Made by a program: the position numbers and the translations under genes. From Desulfocapsa sp. (GTDB taxonomy: Bacteria; Desulfobacterota; Desulfobulbia; Desulfobulbales; Desulfocapsaceae), in contig JANTGG010000014.1 of NCBI GenBank assembly GCA_024763035.1, positions 1-37,965 on the forward strand: a stretch of 37,965 bases of DNA. The letters run 5' to 3'. Below are positions 17,127 through 25,067 of this stretch, piece by piece (position 1 is the first letter of the stretch; every line of letters begins with the position of its first letter). The notes under the pieces were generated by a model that did not search any database, was not told where the DNA came from, and saw nothing but the letters and a program-made list of their open reading frames with translations.

Positions 17127-18326
17127 CTAAGCAGATTCTTTTTCTTTTATTGCCCGACCAACAGTACGACCGAGTTCTATGCACTGTTCCAGATCAGGTT
17201 CTTCCGGAACATATTTTACCTTTAAGCCATCATCCACGATATCAAACTTCATATCTTCCATCGCCTGATTAAGCAGTTTTACAGACTCACCGGACCAGCC
17301 AAATGAACCAAATGCCGCACCAATCTTATTCTGCGGCCGGAGTCCCCGCATATACATGAGGAACCCTGCCATTCTCGGCAACAGTCCGTTGTTCAGAGTA
17401 GGGCATCCAAGCACAATGGCACTGGCATCAAGCACCTCACGCATAACATCACTGCGATGGTTGTAGCGAAGATTCAACAGTTCATAGGAAATACCTTCGT
17501 CCTGCAATCCGGCACCGACTTCCTTTGCCATCTCTTCTGTAGAATGCCACATGGTGTCGTAAATAACAAGTGCCTTACCGTTCCCTTCTCCCTTACTCCA
17601 CTTATCATACGCTTCAATGGCCATTCCGGGGTTGGTCCGCCAGATAACACCATGATCGGGAGCAATCATCTTTATCTCCAGTCCCATTTCAACGACCTTG
17701 GCAATCAGTTTTTTCACCAATGGCGAATAAAGAGTAAGGATATTGGCATAGTATTTTGTCAGCTCTTCCATAAGAATCGCCTGATCCACTTCATCGTCAA
17801 AGCGCTCACTGGTTCCGAGGTGCTCGCCAAAAGCATCCGAGGAGAAGAGGATCTGATCTTCCACAAGATAGGTAAACATGGAATCCGGCCAGTGCAGCAT
17901 ACGAGTTTCCAGAAAAGAGAGGGTCTTGGCACCAAGGCTCACATCTTCACCGGGCTTTGCGATCTGATAAGGCCAGTCTTCTTGATGGAAATGTTGCAAC
18001 AGAGCTTTTTCACCCATCTTGGAACAGATAAGCTTCTCGGGATTAATCAGTTTCACCATATCCGGTAGACTTCCTGAGTGATCCATTTCCACATGGTTGA
18101 CAACGATGTAGTCAATTTTAGCCGGATCCACAATCTCACGGATCCTGGCGAGCATATCATTTTTCTTTGATTTTTTTACCGTGTCAATCAGGGTGATTTT
18201 CTCATCCATAATCAGAAAAGCATTATAGGTGGTTCCCCGATTGGTGGAGTACCCGTGAAAATCACGAACATCCCAGTCGACCGCTCCAACCCAATACACA
18301 TTTTCCGTAAGTTTCACTGGATTCAT
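17127..18326 (-). CDS. Flavodiiron protein (rubredoxin:oxygen oxidoreductase type)
   Basis: Reduces oxygen (or nitric oxide) to harmless products with electrons from rubredoxin, in the cytoplasm. The N-terminal metallo-beta-lactamase-like domain has every diiron ligand: H78-x-E80-x-D82-H83 (NHVEMDHSG), H145, D164 and H225. The C-terminal flavodoxin domain (about 250-399) starts GKALVIYDTMWHSTEEMA and binds FMN. There is no fused rubredoxin, so it should use the separate rubredoxin gene 0.5 kb upstream in the direction of transcription. AGGAGG precedes the ATG. It sits 19 bp after the DsrE-like gene and 13 bp before the desulforedoxin-like gene, forming a three-gene unit. Confidence 0.95.
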   Translation of the reverse strand: MNPVKLTENVYWVGAVDWDVRDFHGYSTNRGTTYNAFLIMDEKITLIDTVKKSKKNDMLARIREIVDPAKIDYIVVNHVEMDHSGSLPDMVKLINPEKLICSKMGEKALLQHFHQEDWPYQIAKPGEDVSLGAKTLSFLETRMLHWPDSMFTYLVEDQILFSSDAFGEHLGTSERFDDEVDQAILMEELTKYYANILTLYSPLVKKLIAKVVEMGLEIKMIAPDHGVIWRTNPGMAIEAYDKWSKGEGNGKALVIYDTMWHSTEEMAKEVGAGLQDEGISYELLNLRYNHRSDVMREVLDASAIVLGCPTLNNGLLPRMAGFLMYMRGLRPQNKIGAAFGSFGWSGESVKLLNQAMEDMKFDIVDDGLKVKYVPEEPDLEQCIELGRTVGRAIKEKESA

Positions 18327-18345
18327 CTGTTTTCCTCCTGCTGAG

Positions 18346-18693
18346 TTAAAAATTTAATATTTCAAAACCGTTTTCAATATATTTCGTCATCCCCGGATGG
18401 CCTGACATATCATCAAGCAGGGGAAGACCCATTTTTTCTATTTTTTTAAGTGCCTGCATCTTCATTGAACAGGCCCGGCAGACACCTTCAAGCAGACCGG
18501 CATCGACCACCTGCACAAAGAGAGCGTGGAGGAAATGTTTTTCTTCCTGTATTTCAGGCAACAGGGCAGTAGCTTCCCCTTCGACTATAACCTTACACTC
18601 ATGCCCGGCGGCGTTCATTGCCAGTCCATTAAGGAGGACATGGATAAAGCACATGGGCTGTCCCTGGAATGCAACCAGTACTATTTTTTTCAT
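18346..18693 (-). CDS. DsrE-like small cytoplasmic protein
   Basis: 115 residues with a compact alpha/beta fold opening MKKIVLVAFQGQPMCFIHVLL and an AGHECKVIVEGEA strand, in the manner of DsrE/DsrF-like sulfur-relay proteins. It carries a C72-x2-C75 motif (VCRACSMKM) that could be redox active or hold a persulfide. Assignment to the DsrE fold is moderate; catalytic function is unknown. It leads the three-gene unit with the flavodiiron protein, which suggests a part in oxygen or sulfide stress. The ribosome site is weak. Confidence 0.65.
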   Translation of the reverse strand: MKKIVLVAFQGQPMCFIHVLLNGLAMNAAGHECKVIVEGEATALLPEIQEEKHFLHALFVQVVDAGLLEGVCRACSMKMQALKKIEKMGLPLLDDMSGHPGMTKYIENGFEILNF

Positions 18694-18762
18694 CTATATA
18701 CTCATTTTTAAAAGAAAATTCAAGAAGACGACAGATACAATTCTTTACTGTTAATACACAGG

Positions 18763-18793
18763 AACCGGGGAAAAGGTGAAATTCTCCCCGGTT
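18763..18793. terminator. GC-rich hairpin after the double rubredoxin gene
   Basis: AACCGGGGA (18763-18771) pairs with TCTCCCCGGTT (18783-18793), one bulge. The T run on the plus strand is short (TTTTCG) and absent on the minus strand, so it is a weak terminator or an mRNA 3' end stabiliser for the rubredoxin message. Confidence 0.5.
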
Positions 18794-18812
18794 TTCGTTC
18801 ATTCTGCGAAAT

Positions 18813-19226
18813 CTACATTTCGGAAAATTCGTCTTTCCCAGCCCCACAAACGGGGCATTCAAAGTCATCTGGCAGATCCTCAAAAGCTGTTCCGGGAGCA
18901 ACACCCTCCGCATCATCTCCCGCATCCGGATCATAGACATATCCGCAAATATCACACCTGTACTTCTTCATACCACTCTCCGTTTTTTTGGTTTCTGTTT
19001 GTTCCGGTGCTGTAGCCGACGTATTTTCGGCATGTACTGACCCCGGTCCCGCCAATGGTCTGAATGCCTTTACAGAGGCACCGCAAACCGGACACTTCCA
19101 TCCTTCCGGAAGATCCTTAAACTGTGTTCCTTTCTTGACCTTTCCCTTGCGATCCCCCTTGTCGGGGTCATAAATATAGCCACAGTTCAACGACTGGCAC
19201 TGGTACATTTCCTCTGGCGACGACAT
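18813..19226 (-). CDS. Two-domain rubredoxin (CX4C + CX2C)
   Basis: An electron carrier of 137 residues with two rubredoxin domains joined by a Thr/Glu-rich linker (about 62-85). Domain 1 binds iron through C10, C15, C45 and C48; the C10-x4-C15 spacing is the unusual one described for Desulfovibrio type II rubredoxin. Domain 2 has the standard C91-x2-C94 with C124 and C127. Both contain YxYDPxxGD and DLPxxxxCPVCGA. AAGGAG precedes the ATG. It likely feeds the flavodiiron protein and perhaps rubrerythrin and desulfoferrodoxin encoded on either side. Two domains of different spacing suggest two reduction potentials or partners. Confidence 0.92.
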
Positions 19227-19323
19227 GCTTGCACTCCTTCTTTGTTCATACTTTTTTTTACTATTTCAGACACAACACTGCATTACGCGATTAGCAGCAA
19301 AGCACAGTTGAACGCTCTTTGAT

Positions 19324-19366
19324 GGAGAAAGTCGCCCCTGCCATATCGCTCGCAGGGGCAAGCTCC
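19324..19366. repeat. REP-like palindrome, copy 1
   Basis: GCCCCTGC (19334-19341) and GCAGGGGC (19352-19359) form a perfect 8-bp stem, enclosed by outer GGAG and CTCC. The right side read in reverse is GGAGCTTGCCCC, shared with the element at 25068-25105 (GGAGCTTGTCC). It lies in the 228-bp gap between desulfoferrodoxin and rubredoxin genes, where no other feature was seen. Confidence 0.5.
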
Positions 19367-19454
19367 TACAATTTCAGTCCATAGTTACCTGAGCTTCAGT
19401 GCTACACAAAATAGAATACTTTCCGATCAATCTCTTTAAAATCTACAGTAGAGA

Positions 19455-19829
19455 TCAAGCCTTCCAGACACCGTGCAGATTACAGTGGGCACGGGCTGTA
19501 GGTGCATCGGCAGATGTCAGGAAAACTGCTTCCGGGGCATCACCGGGACTCAGGAACTGTCTGTAGCAGGTGTCGCCGGCAATAAGCTCAATCCACTCAA
19601 TAAAATGATCGTCAGCCATTGGATGGGCAACACTTCCCACGCTCACCTTGTAACCACCGTCAATTTTTTCAATCACCGGGACATGTTTCTCCTGTGCAGC
19701 ATCAACGGTGTTTTCTTTCAGATAATTCATGGGCTGCCCGCAGCAGCTCATGGAACCGGCGCCGGCATGCACAACCTCTGCAACATTTCCGCAGACACCA
19801 CATTGATAAATTCCCAATTTTTCAGCCAT
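19455..19829 (-). CDS. dfx: Desulfoferrodoxin (2Fe superoxide reductase)
   Basis: Reduces superoxide to hydrogen peroxide without forming oxygen. The N-terminal desulforedoxin domain binds Fe(Cys)4 through C10, C13, C29 and C30; the catalytic domain has the E47-K48-H49 active-site motif, H69, H75, C116 and H119 for the Fe(His)4Cys centre. The length of 124 residues is typical of class I enzymes. AGGAGG precedes the ATG. It lies 39 bp after the peroxiredoxin gene, which can remove the peroxide it makes; electrons would come from rubredoxin. Confidence 0.97.
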
Positions 19830-19868
19830 AATACACCTCCTGTTAAAAACACGTTAAAAAGAATCTGT

Positions 19869-20465
19869 TTAATCGTCCTTGTGGTCAGCGAGATATTTTG
19901 CAACACCCTCGGCCGTGGGGGTCATTGCCTCATCACCCTTGTTCCAGTTTGCAGGACACACATCACCAAATTCTTCAGTAAACTGCAGGGCATCAAGCAT
20001 ACGCAGAGCCTCGGCAACACTGCGACCCAGGGGAAGATCGTTCACCACCTGGTGACGAACGATGCCATCTTTGTCGATGAGATAGAGACCACGCAGAGCA
20101 ATTCCTGCATCAAGCAATACACCGTAATTACTAGAAATGGATTTGTCCAGATCGGCAACCAGAGGAAATTGCACATTCCCGATTCCGCCATCATTTACTG
20201 CCGTATTCTTCCACGCCAGGTGGGAAAAGTGGGAGTCCACCGAAACACCTACCACTTCACAGTTTTTTTCCTTAAATTGATCTACGGCCTTATGAAAGGC
20301 AATGATCTCCGAGGGGCAGACAAATGTAAAATCCAAGGGATAAAAGAAAAGAAGGACGTAGCTGCCGCGCATCCCGGAAAGTGTAAACTCCTCATTGAAC
20401 GTATTGTCCGGCATAACAGCCGTCGCGGTGAAATCAGGTGCTTCATTGGTTACTAAAGGTTTCAT
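19869..20465 (-). CDS. Typical 2-Cys peroxiredoxin (AhpC/Prx1 type)
   Basis: Reduces hydrogen peroxide and organic peroxides. Peroxidatic C50 is in FYPLDFTFVCPSE and resolving C170 in FGDVCPANW, with the usual C-terminal helix after it. A GGIG segment at 93-96 matches the loop linked to sensitivity to over-oxidation in Prx1-type enzymes. The length of 198 residues is normal and GGAGAT precedes the ATG. It lies 39 bp upstream of desulfoferrodoxin, probably in one transcript. The reductase is not encoded beside it; rubredoxin- or thioredoxin-linked reduction is possible. Confidence 0.94.
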   Translation of the reverse strand: MKPLVTNEAPDFTATAVMPDNTFNEEFTLSGMRGSYVLLFFYPLDFTFVCPSEIIAFHKAVDQFKEKNCEVVGVSVDSHFSHLAWKNTAVNDGGIGNVQFPLVADLDKSISSNYGVLLDAGIALRGLYLIDKDGIVRHQVVNDLPLGRSVAEALRMLDALQFTEEFGDVCPANWNKGDEAMTPTAEGVAKYLADHKDD

Positions 20466-20577
20466 TCATATCTCCATATTTGATAGTTTTACAGTACGTG
20501 CTGAGCTGCCGGATCCGTTTGCAACGTCATCAGCAGGATCAGAGGCTTACAGTGGGGGGGGTATAGCAAGACAACAT

Positions 20578-21153
20578 TTACCAGTTCTCCGCCAACAGCT
20601 CAAAATATGCCCGGGGATGACTGCATGCAGGGCATTTTTTCGGAGCCTCGCTGCCTGTATGTGTAAACCCGCATTTGGCACAGTACCAGGTCTGTTCTTC
20701 ATCTTTTGTAAACACCTTATCCGCCTCTATATTGGCAATAAGGGCACGGTACATCTTCGCATGCTGTTTTTCGGCAACAGCGATGGACCGCATGGCTGCC
20801 GCTATCACGGGGAAACCTTCCTCATCTGCAATATCAGCAAATTCCGGATACATGGTCTCAAACTCATGTTCTTCACCCATAGCAGCATTTTTGAGATTCT
20901 CAACAGTATCTGCAGGTGCCGCAGCAGGAAAAGATGCCGAGATTGCCACATCTCCTCCCTCCAAAAATTTCAGCAGCGTCTTCGCATGTGCCCGCTCCTG
21001 CTCTGCGGTACGTTCAAAAAGAGCTGCGACCTGCACATACCCTTCCTTCTTGGCAACTTTTGCATAATAGGAATAACGGTTCCTTGCCTGCGACTCACCC
21101 GCAAAAGCGGTCATGATATTTATCTCTGTTCTCGTTCCCTTTACATTCGCCAT
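20578..21153 (-). CDS. rbr: Rubrerythrin
   Basis: A peroxide reductase of anaerobes, 191 residues. The N-terminal ferritin-like four-helix domain holds the diiron ligands (AFAGESQARNRY, AEQERAHAK, EHEFETMYP, AVAEKQHAKMY). The C-terminal rubredoxin domain is WYCAKCGFTHTG with CPACSHPRAYFELL. The frame extends two codons upstream to a TTG, but the ATG at 21153 is correctly placed behind GAGAGGG. It follows the Fur/PerR-type repressor gene by 19 bp, so the two are probably one operon under that repressor's control. A 112-bp gap containing a run of eight G separates it from the peroxiredoxin gene. Confidence 0.96.
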   Translation of the reverse strand: MANVKGTRTEINIMTAFAGESQARNRYSYYAKVAKKEGYVQVAALFERTAEQERAHAKTLLKFLEGGDVAISASFPAAAPADTVENLKNAAMGEEHEFETMYPEFADIADEEGFPVIAAAMRSIAVAEKQHAKMYRALIANIEADKVFTKDEEQTWYCAKCGFTHTGSEAPKKCPACSHPRAYFELLAENW

Positions 21154-21172
21154 AACCAAACCCTCTCCATCC

Positions 21173-21841
21173 TTATGCTTTTAACGCAGTTTTACCTTCA
21201 TCAGTGATTTCATACTTACAGCGGACAGGACTTTCCACAAGACCCTTCTTCTTCAGAGCTGTAATCCGGCAGCTGACTTGTTTGGTTTCAAGTCCCGTTG
21301 CCGCTGCGATATCTTTGGACGCACACGGCCCGTCACACTTGCCCATCGCTTCAAGTACCTGTTTCTGCTCATCTGTTAATCCACCTTTTTTACATCCACA
21401 ACCCATATCACCAACTCCTTTGTTTTCTTTCCTGTCTGTTTTTGATTTTGTTTTTATCAGCTTTTTCTGACATTTAGGACAAAGACCACTGACCTCAAGA
21501 CGAAATCCTGTGATCTCATACCCCTTCATCGTATCATACTTTGGGACATCCATTCCACTCTTGTCCAGATCCAGATTCTCAACCTGCTGACACTGAACAC
21601 AATAAATATGATCATGATCTTCAACTATCGCATCAAACCGCTTCTGACGACCACTGATCTCAAGCTTGCGGATAACACCAACATCTGACAGAATCTCAAG
21701 ATTCCGATAAACGGTAGCAAGACTTATCCTGGGCATGGTCTTTCTCACCCGCTCATACAGCTCGTCTGCGGTTAAATGCCCTTTACTCTTTTTTAATTCA
21801 CGCAGGATCATTTCCCGCTGATTTGTCATTCGTAATTGCAT
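21173..21841 (-). CDS. Fur/PerR-type repressor fused to a Cys-rich winged-helix domain
   Basis: A 222-residue metal-dependent repressor, far longer than the usual 140-150. The N-terminal part is a complete Fur-family protein: winged helix with ISLATVYRNLEILSDVGVI, metal-site EDHDHIYC, and two structural zinc pairs CVQC and CPKC. After a Lys-rich linker comes a 77-residue extension starting MGCGCKKGGLTDEQ, with a second winged helix (DIAAATGLETKQVSCRITALKK) and further Cys. The start is ATG at 21841 behind AAGGAGGG; an upstream extension to 21922 is unlikely. PerR rather than Fur function is inferred from the rubrerythrin gene 19 bp downstream. At the position of B. subtilis PerR Asp104 my alignment gives Asn, so peroxide sensing is not certain. 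Confidence 0.85.
   Translation of the reverse strand: MQLRMTNQREMILRELKKSKGHLTADELYERVRKTMPRISLATVYRNLEILSDVGVIRKLEISGRQKRFDAIVEDHDHIYCVQCQQVENLDLDKSGMDVPKYDTMKGYEITGFRLEVSGLCPKCQKKLIKTKSKTDRKENKGVGDMGCGCKKGGLTDEQKQVLEAMGKCDGPCASKDIAAATGLETKQVSCRITALKKKGLVESPVRCKYEITDEGKTALKA
21415..21421 (-). promoter_or_regulatory. Internal ribosome site before the fused winged-helix domain
   Basis: Within the repressor gene, AAAGGAG lies 8 nt before the ATG at 21406, which begins the segment MGCGCKKGG. Sequence and spacing are ideal, so the C-terminal domain could be made separately (78 codons including the stop) as well as in the fusion. It may be a relic of two once-separate genes. Confidence 0.6.
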
Positions 21842-21850
21842 ATACCCTCC

Positions 21851-21867
21851 TTGATAATTATTTTCAA
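21851..21867. promoter_or_regulatory. Fur/PerR-type operator before the repressor gene
   Basis: TTGATAATTATTTTCAA is a near-perfect inverted repeat. Its central 15 bp match the 7-1-7 Fur consensus TGATAATNATTATCA at 13 of 14 informative positions. It ends about 10 bp upstream of the repressor ATG, abutting the ribosome site, and points to autoregulation of the repressor-rubrerythrin operon. Confidence 0.7.
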
Positions 21868-21917
21868 ATGTAAGTGATAACTTTTTGCAAGTCAAGTGTT
21901 TTTCACACATATATTTC

Positions 21918-22003
21918 AGCACCGCACAAATTCTTTCGTGTTTTTCTGAAAAGAATCTGTGAAGGTGCTTATCCCGGCGTACCGTTCATCACCGGTGCTG
22001 GGA
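21918..22003 (+). repeat. Two-hairpin intergenic repeat, copy 2
   Basis: The long hairpin pairs 21918-21937 (starts AGCACC) with 21948-21969 (ends GGTGCT), followed by a short hairpin pairing CCGG (21974-21977) with CCGG (21992-21995) across a 14-nt loop ending GTTCATCA. It lies upstream of the repressor gene, so it may overlap that gene's promoter region. Same family as 2329-2435 and 35989-36092. Confidence 0.7.
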
Positions 22004-22630: not shown

Positions 22631-23443
22631 CTACCGAGCCTCAAGAACAGCATCAAACTCTTTACTGATAAACTTCAGATGTTGAGTTTCCTCTTTCGCC
22701 AGATACTCAAAAAGCTGCCGACTTTCATCACTCCCGGCTTTTCGGCTGAGACGTGTGTACAGATCAAGTGCCTGGGTCTCAAGCATCATTCCCAGTTGCA
22801 GAATATCTGACAGTGTCCCGGTCTGCGATTGAAAATAGCTGAGAACCTGACTGCGGTCAAATCCGCCCTCAAGGGTTTCCACCACAGTATCAGTTGCAGT
22901 ACCTGTGGGAAACATCGCTTTCAGCTTCTCCTTGTGACCCTCTTCAAATACAGCCAGGCGACCGAGGAGTGCTTTTGCCTCAGTATCATCCACCTGCGCT
23001 TCCATTGCCAGATACAGTTGCCGCAGCCCTTCTTCCATGGCATAGCTCATCTGGAAGGCATCATCAAAATCACCGCTAACAAAATCTCCCATACCAAAAT
23101 CCTCACTGCCAACCGCCTTACCGCCATTAAAAGCGATAATACCGCCACTCATATTCTGGATATTCTCATACCCGGCAGCCAACAGTAACTGCGCAGCAGC
23201 CTTGCTGCGTACTCCGGAATGTCAGTAAACAAAGGTCGGTTTTGCAGGATCAAGTTCGGTGATTCGTTCATTGATCTCTTTTAAGGGAAGCAGCAGGGCA
23301 CCGGGCAGATGCTCCTTTTCATATTCCTTCGGCTGCCGCACATCAAGAAGCTGATAGTCGCCAGGCTGATGTTCTGCCATGAACCTGCTCACTTCAGCCG
23401 GGCTGATGTTGGCACCTGGTGTAAAAAGTGTCTTCCAATTCAT
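22631..23443 (-). CDS. Rhodanese-ferritin-like fusion selenoprotein (UGA = Sec74)
   Basis: A single frame of 270 residues interrupted by one TGA at 23222-23224. Reading through gives FVY-U-HSGVRSKAAAQ, so the TGA falls exactly on the catalytic Cys of the rhodanese loop CxxGxR; U74 is therefore very likely selenocysteine. Domains: rhodanese (about 1-105; LLDVRQPKEYEKEHLPGA upstream, GYENIQNMSGGIIAF downstream), then a ferritin-like four-helix diiron domain (about 120-270) with EEGL, EEGHKE, LETQALDLY and EETQHLK. A 7-bp hairpin starts 12 nt after the TGA (23192-23209). The start ATG overlaps the stop of the previous gene as ATGA. A conventional caller would give a 73-residue rhodanese stub and a headless ferritin. 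Likely role: sulfur/selenium transfer coupled to peroxide or oxygen chemistry (inference). Confidence 0.88.
23192..23209 (-). promoter_or_regulatory. Putative bacterial SECIS hairpin, rhodanese-ferritin gene
   Basis: On the minus strand CGCAGCA-AGGC-TGCTGCG, a perfect 7-bp stem with a tetraloop containing GG. The stem starts 12 nt and the loop about 19-22 nt after the UGA, within the distance used by SelB-dependent bacterial SECIS elements. Confidence 0.65.
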
Positions 23444-23778
23444 CCTGCAAGCTCCCTGTACATTGTTTCGTTATAGCCCACGTACACAGTCTTTCCTTTG
23501 CGAACAGTCGGTGCCCGCAGGTTACCGGTACGCCCGAGACTCACCTTCAATAATGCTTCCTGCGAAGCACTTTCAGGACTGAATTCCACGGTCTTTTTCC
23601 CCCTTCCCACATACACCTTTTCCGCCTTTTCAAAAATCTGCCAGGCATCATCCGCCTTCAGCACATTCTTTCGTGCATCAACAATTTCTGTGACACTCAC
23701 CCCTGCCTGCTCAAGAGCCTCCTGAGCCTTTGTGCAGGATTTTCAGCCCTTGCGAAAGTACATCCAGTCGATGGTCAT
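23440..23778 (-). CDS. ArsC/Spx-like thioredoxin-fold selenoprotein (UGA = Sec12)
   Basis: A 112-residue protein if the TGA at 23743-23745 is read as Sec. The N-terminus is then RKGUKSCTKAQEAL, so U12-x2-C15 replaces the CxxC of an ArsC/glutaredoxin-like fold; the C-terminal half keeps LGRTGNLRAPTVRKGKTVYVGYNE, the cis-Pro region of the ArsC family. AAAGGAG precedes the ATG at 23778, which lies 23 bp after the FAD oxidoreductase gene. Without recoding, the only open frame starts at an internal GTG (23700) and lacks the active site. A SECIS-like hairpin lies at 23701-23739. The true stop is a second TGA overlapping the next ATG (ATGA). Likely a selenol-dependent reductase; arsenate is only one of several possible substrates. 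Confidence 0.87.
23701..23739 (-). promoter_or_regulatory. Putative bacterial SECIS hairpin, ArsC-like gene
   Basis: On the minus strand the outer stem CCTGC/GCAGG encloses an inner stem GCTCA/TGAGC with loop GGAGGCTCT. The apical loop lies about 21-29 nt after the UGA, in the expected SECIS window. Confidence 0.55.
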
Positions 23779-23801: not shown

Positions 23802-24902
23802 TTATTGAAACGTTTTCATAAATTTTCTGTCTATCCAGTCCTTAATCTTATACGCCAGGACACCGGACATCTGAAACCATTTTTTTCGAAAAACGCCCAG
23901 AAAATTCCCCAGGTTAAAGATCAGCAGGTAGTCTCCGCCGGGATCAAAAGGCTGCAGATCCTCTCCCTGCAGGTATGCCTTCAGATTATGGAACAATACG
24001 GGATTTTCCCGAACGGCGTACACACCCACCTTGTCAAGGGGCTGCTCCAGATAATTGATACAGTCTCCCCCGCCGAAGATCTCCGGATAATCGGGGCACT
24101 GCAGATACCGATTTACGGACAGCCCCCCGTCTTCCCCGGTCTGCAACCCGGCTTCCTTAAAAAAAGATGACGGATGTACACCGGTTGCAAGAATAACAAA
24201 ATCGGCAGAAAGTTCCGCCCCAGAGGTAAAAGTCAGGTGGTTATCCGTTATGGATACAAGGTGTCCCTCTTCACGGATAGAAACCCCGTTCAGCTCAAGT
24301 ATGCGCCGACTCCTCTCTTGTATTCCCCTGGGGAACCTGCTTAAGAGGGCATTGCCGGCAAACAGAACAACATCTGCGGAATAGGGAACATCAACCAGCA
24401 GCTGCCCGAGATTCCCTGCCGTCTCCGCACCTGCAGGACCGCCACCGACCACAGCAACGGTCACCGATTGCTGCTGCGCGAGTGCGGATATTTCAGTCCG
24501 TGCCTGATACAGTCTCTCTATGGGCTTGACCGTGTATATCCTCTCCCGGCTGCCGCTGATTTCCGGAATATCAACATGACTGCCGGTGTTGAAAGAGACC
24601 ACATCATAGAACATCTTCTCACCGGACTTCAGGAACAGCTCGCGCCTGTCCGGGTCAACACCAACGACACTATCCTGAACAAACACAGCGCCCTGCGCCT
24701 CAACTTTTTGTTTCACGGCAAAACGAATATCTTCCGGCTCATAGCCACCGCCGAGCATTCCAGGTCCCATACCAGAATAATAATGGTAATCCGACGGACC
24801 GATCACTGTGACCTTATGACCAAGCTCTTTTACAACATGGATATTTGCCATACTCACCATGTGTGCGTGACCGGCTCCTGCCAGAACGAGATGTTTACCC
24901 AT
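23802..24902 (-). CDS. FAD-dependent NAD(P)H oxidoreductase, SelD N-terminal-domain-like
   Basis: 366 residues of a two-dinucleotide-fold flavoprotein related to type II NADH dehydrogenases. The FAD site is HLVLAGAGHAHM near the N-terminus, NAD(P)H binding is VAVVGGGPAGAETAGNL, and the second FAD contact is EIFGGGDCINY. The GxGHAH element and short length are those of the family found fused to the N-terminus of selenophosphate synthetase SelD or alone beside selenium genes (from memory of that family). The C-terminal WFQMSGVLAYKIKDWIDRKFM is an amphipathic tail that may touch the membrane. ATG at 24902 is chosen; an upstream TTG at 24956 would add 18 residues foreign to the fold. It leads the operon with the two selenoproteins and is a candidate electron donor for them. 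Confidence 0.82.
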   Translation of the reverse strand: MGKHLVLAGAGHAHMVSMANIHVVKELGHKVTVIGPSDYHYYSGMGPGMLGGGYEPEDIRFAVKQKVEAQGAVFVQDSVVGVDPDRRELFLKSGEKMFYDVVSFNTGSHVDIPEISGSRERIYTVKPIERLYQARTEISALAQQQSVTVAVVGGGPAGAETAGNLGQLLVDVPYSADVVLFAGNALLSRFPRGIQERSRRILELNGVSIREEGHLVSITDNHLTFTSGAELSADFVILATGVHPSSFFKEAGLQTGEDGGLSVNRYLQCPDYPEIFGGGDCINYLEQPLDKVGVYAVRENPVLFHNLKAYLQGEDLQPFDPGGDYLLIFNLGNFLGVFRKKWFQMSGVLAYKIKDWIDRKFMKTFQ

Positions 24903-25067
24903 AATTTCAAACAACAAAGAGTTAATAAATCTGACTGCCCCTCTAACCGGCTGCAACCCGCTGAAACAACCAAAGAAAGCATACCATATACTGCAGTACC
25001 CCAGAAGTAGTATACGTGCTTAAAATAAAAAAATAAATACTTATTACATCCCGGGTCCTGTTCCCCG

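Follow-up and report, generated by a model that had tools for sequence, protein, structure and literature searches.

A predicted selenocysteine-containing rhodanese fused to a rubrerythrin-type diiron domain and encoded directly behind a second selenoprotein gene in Desulfocapsa sp.

The accessible part of PMC13188914 tabulates UxxG selenoproteins of the rhodanese-like kind as forms 2 and 4, with MBM9537886.1 and MCY3690685.1 as examples. Rhodanese-like and ArsC-like UxxC selenoproteins also appear in the available portions of PMC9312934, as do ArsC-type UxxC selenoproteins in those of PMC2398784. In the UxxG forms of PMC13188914, selenocysteine (Sec) occupies the catalytic residue of a PF00581 domain within a UxxG motif, as predicted for the gene described here. 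They differ in that their entries, as far as the source was accessible, are named by the rhodanese domain only; the main text as available yielded no word starting with ferritin or rubrerythrin. MBM9537886.1 or MCY3690685.1 may possibly be the same fusion, i.e., an earlier listing under a plain rhodanese name. No such fusion is named in the accessible parts of PMC1088965, PMC8318568, PMC2702500, PMC5109826 and PMC7376266. A literature search covering passages of partly accessible sources retrieved no description of a diiron domain joined to a rhodanese selenoprotein, and none of a coupled pair of an ArsC-like selenoprotein and this fusion. The first-pass annotation of this DNA had called rhodanese selenoproteins known and the fusion little described, naming none of the published UxxG forms; the latter statement agrees with the search, qualified by the possible earlier listing. 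What appears new, none having been found described in these sources as available, is the diiron fusion of the Sec-rhodanese together with the coupled selenoprotein pair, the rhodanese-like UxxG and ArsC-like UxxC forms being already tabulated.

Several further systems resemble parts of the locus. TsoB (NF045694, rhodanese/DsbD fusion-like) is, according to the accessible record, likewise a rhodanese selenoprotein fused to a redox domain and encoded in a selenoprotein operon; the present fusion scores 15.8 bits against the TsoB cut-off of 805 and does not belong to that family. NADH-dependent persulfide reductases and CoADR-RHD proteins (3nta, 3icr, 8a56, 6pfz) share the combination of flavoprotein and rhodanese, and their rhodanese halves are related to that of the fusion. 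Here, however, the two occur as separate chains, a diiron domain is added and Sec takes the place of Cys, and the flavoprotein is nearer to FSP1, NADH dehydrogenase-like proteins and sulfide-quinone reductase (SQR). Rubrerythrin shares the PF02915 domain with its six expected ligands, whereas the fusion is devoid of the rubredoxin domain. The gene upstream is by score a member of the ArsC family (seleno)proteins (NF041106), differing in that it overlaps a second selenoprotein gene.

The fusion gene and its predicted product

The window is the whole analysed stretch of 37,965 nucleotides (contig JANTGG010000014.1) from a Desulfocapsa sp. assembly of 3.3 Mb in 209 contigs that is 92% complete. 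Its relevant features, all on the minus strand, are the following (evidence in brackets):

22631..23443, rhodanese / rubrerythrin-type diiron fusion gene, predicted Sec at residue 74 (frame, Pfam domains, alignment)
23222..23224, in-frame TGA, predicted to be read as selenocysteine (U74), active-site loop U-H-S-G-V-R (translation, homologue comparison)
23129..23374, rhodanese domain, residues 24-105 (Pfam, model confidence)
22661..23053, rubrerythrin-type ferritin-like domain, residues 131-261, without rubredoxin part (Pfam, alignment, model)
23192..23209, SECIS-like hairpin, 7 bp, loop AGGC, 12-nt spacer after the UGA (folding, comparison of UGA and Cys forms)
23440..23778, predicted second selenoprotein gene, ArsC family UxxC, NF041106 (NCBIfam score, in-frame TGA)
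23743..23745, in-frame TGA of the ArsC-like gene, predicted U12 of GUKSC (translation)
23709..23727, hairpin past the ArsC-like UGA, 8 bp counting one G-U pair (folding, comparison of copies)
23802..24956, stand-alone flavoprotein, NDH-2 / SQR / FSP1-like, likely start 24902 (NCBIfam, structure-chain profile matches)
17127..21922, oxidative-stress genes: Fur-family regulator, rubrerythrin, peroxiredoxin, desulfoferrodoxin, two-domain rubredoxin, ORF 18346-18693, flavodiiron-type protein (Pfam, relatives)

The fusion gene runs from an ATG at 23443 to a TAG stop at 22631 and comprises 270 codons, among which a single in-frame TGA is found in the translation of the window (codon 74, 23224-23222). 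The first-pass annotation had described this frame split by one TGA with correct coordinates and no strand; the latter is minus. A plus-strand frame over 22631-23443 was rejected, its translation not being that of a gene.

Two domains were assigned by Pfam: Rhodanese (PF00581, 73.4 bits versus a cut-off of 22.2) and Rubrerythrin (PF02915, 44.0 bits versus 22.8), the former being matched at E 0.001 in 50 out of 50 fusion members. The six-residue rhodanese loop of the window starts with the predicted Sec and ends in Arg, and its positions 74, 77 and 79 are invariant in the 50 aligned members (Sec written as Cys). Equally invariant in all 50 are the expected diiron ligands E137, E167, H170, E222, E252 and H255, from which a diiron site is predicted; the earlier assignment of the C-terminal half to a ferritin-like diiron domain agrees with both the Pfam score and these ligands. 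No rubredoxin-type FeS4 domain was matched by Pfam in the fusion at E 0.001. The window's chain contains no cysteine residue at all, U74 being its sole such redox residue. For the whole fusion, 21 NCBIfam families were listed at E 0.01, none of them above its own curated cut-off.

The predicted structure of the fusion has a mean pLDDT of 88.2 and a pTM of 0.81. In a fold search, the rhodanese half of the model matched rhodaneses including the domains of NADH-dependent persulfide reductase and CoADR-RHD; the diiron half found no fold match among the 50 matches listed, and is tied to the ferritin-like chains 2fzf and 1vjx by profile search.

Evidence for reading codon 74 as selenocysteine

A scan of genome contigs yielded 17 relatives, named ones including Desulfocapsa and Desulfobulbaceae MAGs and the nearest being a Desulfocapsa MAG (71% protein identity); residue 74 corresponds to TGA in eight of them and to Cys in nine. 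With an 18-row profile of the fusion (E 1e-40), matches were obtained in 176 out of 257 genomes of the class and in 93 out of 395 genomes of a phylum sample, at least four of the latter matches being partial. One TGA, counted at any position, occurs in 32 of the 97 listed phylum match rows. This wide spread through class and phylum is absent from the first-pass annotation.

Eighty additional stretches were fetched, the TGA-bearing ones being picked deliberately along with a spread of Cys ones. This gave 128 sequences, one per source: the window itself and 127 loci, several of which duplicate one gene, L060 being the window's gene again. At codon 74 they have Cys (75) or TGA (53). Among 112 distinct sequences, window included, 66 carry Cys, 46 carry UGA and none any other residue, a ratio which reflects the deliberate choice of TGA matches and not population frequency. 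The Cys of homologues thus falls exactly at residue 74, an outcome in favour of the earlier placement of the TGA at the catalytic Cys of the rhodanese loop. On a quick tree with the residue masked, the Sec/Cys label changes 11 times, ten of which are forced by starred branches; Sec and Cys have therefore been exchanged repeatedly. Both forms, one copy each, reside in five genomes (G125, G139, G159, G230 and G233).

Comparison of the window with five UGA relatives gave pN 0.10-0.28 and pS 0.50-0.92 before and after the TGA, with pS near saturation, and four further sequence pairs gave dN/dS 0.00-0.30. As judged from these codon comparisons, purifying selection acts on both sides of the TGA.

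The hairpin noted in the first-pass annotation, with 7 bp and a GG-containing loop 12 nt past the TGA, is present at 23209-23192 (CGCAGCA-AGGC-TGCTGCG). Considering two main registers chosen after sequence inspection, one common to 39 UGA forms and the second better for seven, a hairpin of at least 6 bp was found in 42 of the 46 UGA forms and 3 of the 66 Cys forms, where synonymous-codon shuffling expects 3.4 and 2.0, respectively. For any register with a G in the loop, the counts are 43/46 UGA and 5/66 Cys forms at 6 bp or more (expected, 8.7 and 6.7), and 45/46 and 22/66 at 5 bp or more (expected, 18.9 and 18.5). The UGA forms falling below 6 bp in the main registers are L043 and L086 (5 bp), L084 (4 bp) and L076 (2 bp), the last two being those without hairpin at the 5-bp mark. 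When ten independent pairs of a Sec and a Cys form were compared, a main-register hairpin with 5 bp or more went with Sec in 5.7, against it in 0 and showed no difference in 4.3 (averages; median p 0.03, range 0.03-0.13). Five Cys forms carry the hairpin at 5 bp in the main registers (L040, L055, L125, L148 and L151); three of these (L055, L148 and L151) lie inside mostly-Sec groups, as expected for a recent Sec-to-Cys change. The SECIS-like hairpin is accordingly kept in UGA forms and largely missing from Cys forms. Whole-region folding energy separated the groups weakly (MFE z, Sec -0.49, Cys -0.16; p 0.08) and was dropped as a test in favour of the located hairpin; in an Rfam scan of the window no family reached threshold.

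Genes for the complete Sec machinery, a check proposed in the first-pass annotation, were all identified in the genome above curated cut-offs: selB (370.4 bits), selA (596.9), selD (377.4) and tRNA-Sec (selC; 74.8), selD being located on a different contig from the fusion in this fragmented assembly. The genome's SelD (L018, G000 contig 25) has an in-frame UGA of its own near the N-terminus (AAGUAAKLGPGDL). SelB was matched at 1e-60 in 38 of 44 Sec-form genomes and also in 52 of 58 genomes whose fetched fusion copy is Cys, where some of the 58 hold a second copy of unread form and several of the 44 also hold a Cys copy; machinery loss therefore does not explain most Cys forms, and SelB presence is of no use as a discriminator, both groups being mostly SelB-positive. 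The six Sec-form genomes without SelB match at 1e-60 have selA (6/6) and mostly tRNA-Sec (5/6). Three genomes of genus g12 (G154, G156 and G158) combine a UGA fusion with no SelB match at 1e-60, selA in 3/3 and tRNA-Sec in 2/3; the missing match is perhaps due to incomplete assemblies.

Two other readings of codon 74 were weighed, both of them very improbable. Decoding of UGA as another amino acid, by near-cognate read-through or with UGA = Trp, is favoured by nothing beyond the frame being open under such a code. In the matched frames, TGA is confined to the catalytic codon save for one more close to the C-terminus of each of L084 and L120, probably the stop there; the window's ArsC-like gene terminates with TGA, and the genome has a complete Sec system. 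Trp in place of the catalytic residue would be expected to destroy a rhodanese active site. Under the second reading the TGA would truly terminate translation or result from faulty assembly, leaving a broken rhodanese gene and a separate ferritin-like protein from an internal TTG at 23182. This agrees with the 183-aa ORF given by mechanical ORF listing, but is opposed by recurrence of the TGA in 46 distinct sequences, single-contig assemblies (G056, G078 and G126) included, by Cys at its position in the other 66, by selection continuing past it and by the accompanying hairpin. The recurrence of the TGA makes error or pseudogene very unlikely.

The UGA of codon 74 is thus predicted to be read as selenocysteine, aided by the downstream hairpin and with a full-length Sec-rhodanese/diiron product, at a probability of about 0.9. 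This reading is based on the coding frame, the Sec/Cys exchange, the Sec-linked hairpin, the complete Sec machinery and the overlapping second UGA gene upstream. Mechanical gene calling ends the frame at the UGA or begins a new one after it, and such genes are therefore easily missed.

The upstream ArsC-like gene, the flavoprotein and the neighbourhood

The gene upstream of the fusion scores 134.5 bits with NF041106, "ArsC family (seleno)protein" (curated cut-off 85), and 21.5 bits with Pfam ArsC PF03960, below the gathering cut-off of 24. By its family score and in-frame TGA it is a second predicted selenoprotein gene, absent from the first-pass annotation. Its stop TGA overlaps the ATG of the fusion (ATGA), an arrangement found at the fusion start in 21 of the 22 loci, out of 112 distinct ones, in which an ArsC-like gene adjoins the fusion. 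All 22 copies carry U, and 13 of them stand beside a Cys fusion. Past the UGA, 19 of the 22 distinct copies can form 5 bp or more in the same hairpin register, versus 13.5 expected from synonymous shuffling, which is weak on its own because the codon pool is drawn from the same close relatives. At 90 of the 112 loci, including a few whose flanks are short, no ArsC-like gene was found next to the fusion, among them the window's nearest relative L029 and all 61 loci of the other of two branches described below; the ArsC-like protein can therefore not be the sole reductant.

The flavoprotein reached 269.6 bits with TIGR03169 ("Nterm_to_SelD"), below the cut-off of 310, and is by score not a member. 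Among solved structures it resembles AIFM2/FSP1, NADH dehydrogenase-like proteins and sulfide-quinone reductase. The 112 loci were split by active-site motif into two branches, 51 of the window's branch and 61 of the other. The flavoprotein lies upstream of the fusion in 15/51 loci of the former (9/12 Sec, 6/39 Cys) and directly downstream in 40/61 of the latter (28/34 Sec, 12/27 Cys). Overall, it adjoins 37 of 44 Sec forms versus 18 of 57 Cys forms at loci with enough flank (11 of the 112 left out). Dependence of this link on Sec was rejected: it follows lineage, independent pairs going the same way in 0.0, the opposite way in 0.6 and showing no difference in 9.4.

Downstream of the fusion follows an Lcl_C-domain gene, and then the run of oxidative-stress genes from the Fur-family regulator to the flavodiiron-type protein. 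Gene order from the Fur-family regulator onward is kept in L031, L032, L034 and L036, the desulfoferrodoxin match of L034 being weak. Within this island, 18346-18693 (minus strand) encodes a conserved 115-aa protein that has no Pfam match and is 73-77% identical in four relatives. The Fur-family regulator (21173-21922, minus strand) has an extra C-terminal winged-helix-like part; its counterpart in L031 matches as two overlapping pieces, as after a frameshift. Elsewhere, near position 6235 of L137 (reversed stretch), a candidate rhodanese-like selenoprotein has an in-frame TGA in YCGGYTUGMSP and is a separate weak fusion-profile match (35.2 bits).

Possible function of the Sec-rhodanese/diiron fusion

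We infer that the fusion handles persulfide and peroxide, with selenium, persulfide and diiron chemistry acting together in one chain. Sulfane sulfur (polysulfide, thiosulfate or persulfide) would be accepted on Sec as a Se-S adduct. The window's chain is free of cysteine, and its selenium centre is therefore probably resolved in trans. The most plausible partner for releasing the adduct would be the ArsC-like UxxC selenoprotein of the overlapping gene, where present, with electrons passing from NAD(P)H via the neighbouring NDH-2-like flavoprotein to the ArsC-like selenoprotein; loci without an ArsC-like gene would need another reductant. The diiron domain would reduce (or sense) H2O2 or O2. 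A persulfide relay via the Sec-rhodanese with a reductant in trans is a proposal of less than even odds. A more specific version, put forward only tentatively, is a translationally coupled relay of two selenoproteins, from flavoprotein via Sec-ArsC to Sec-rhodanese, in which the sulfur (or selenium) adduct would be coupled to a diiron peroxidase in one chain, and sulfane sulfur and peroxide would be removed together.

Two other functions of the selenoprotein were considered. The rhodanese domain might act in transport or regulation, as a carrier or regulator, with only a structural part left to the diiron domain, which is a doubtful reading. Single-domain rhodaneses are often carriers, and the fusion offers no rubredoxin domain to feed electrons to the diiron site; a purely structural role is at odds with the invariance of all six expected diiron ligands in 50 of 50 members. 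It is distinctly less probable that the protein handles selenium rather than sulfur, with the Sec-rhodanese delivering Se to SelD. Such a role agrees with the TIGR03169-like flavoprotein, which adjoins the fusion in both branches and resembles the domain fused to SelD, Ndh-SelD fusions being published (PMC2398784, as far as accessible). On the other hand, the flavoprotein adjoins Cys forms as well (18/57), selD is on a separate contig of a fragmented assembly and oxidative-stress genes surround the operon.

The predicted protein would combine, within a single chain, an active site with selenium, a fold for sulfur transfer and a diiron site, with no other thiol in the window's version. The repeated exchange of Sec and Cys, which the hairpin largely follows, represents a natural experiment on the use of selenium by a sulfurtransferase. 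The position of the Sec-fusion directly behind a second predicted selenoprotein suggests a little-described selenium-based stress pathway, and the coupled relay, if true, would provide Desulfocapsa-like sulfur-cycling bacteria with a persulfide peroxidase based on selenium.
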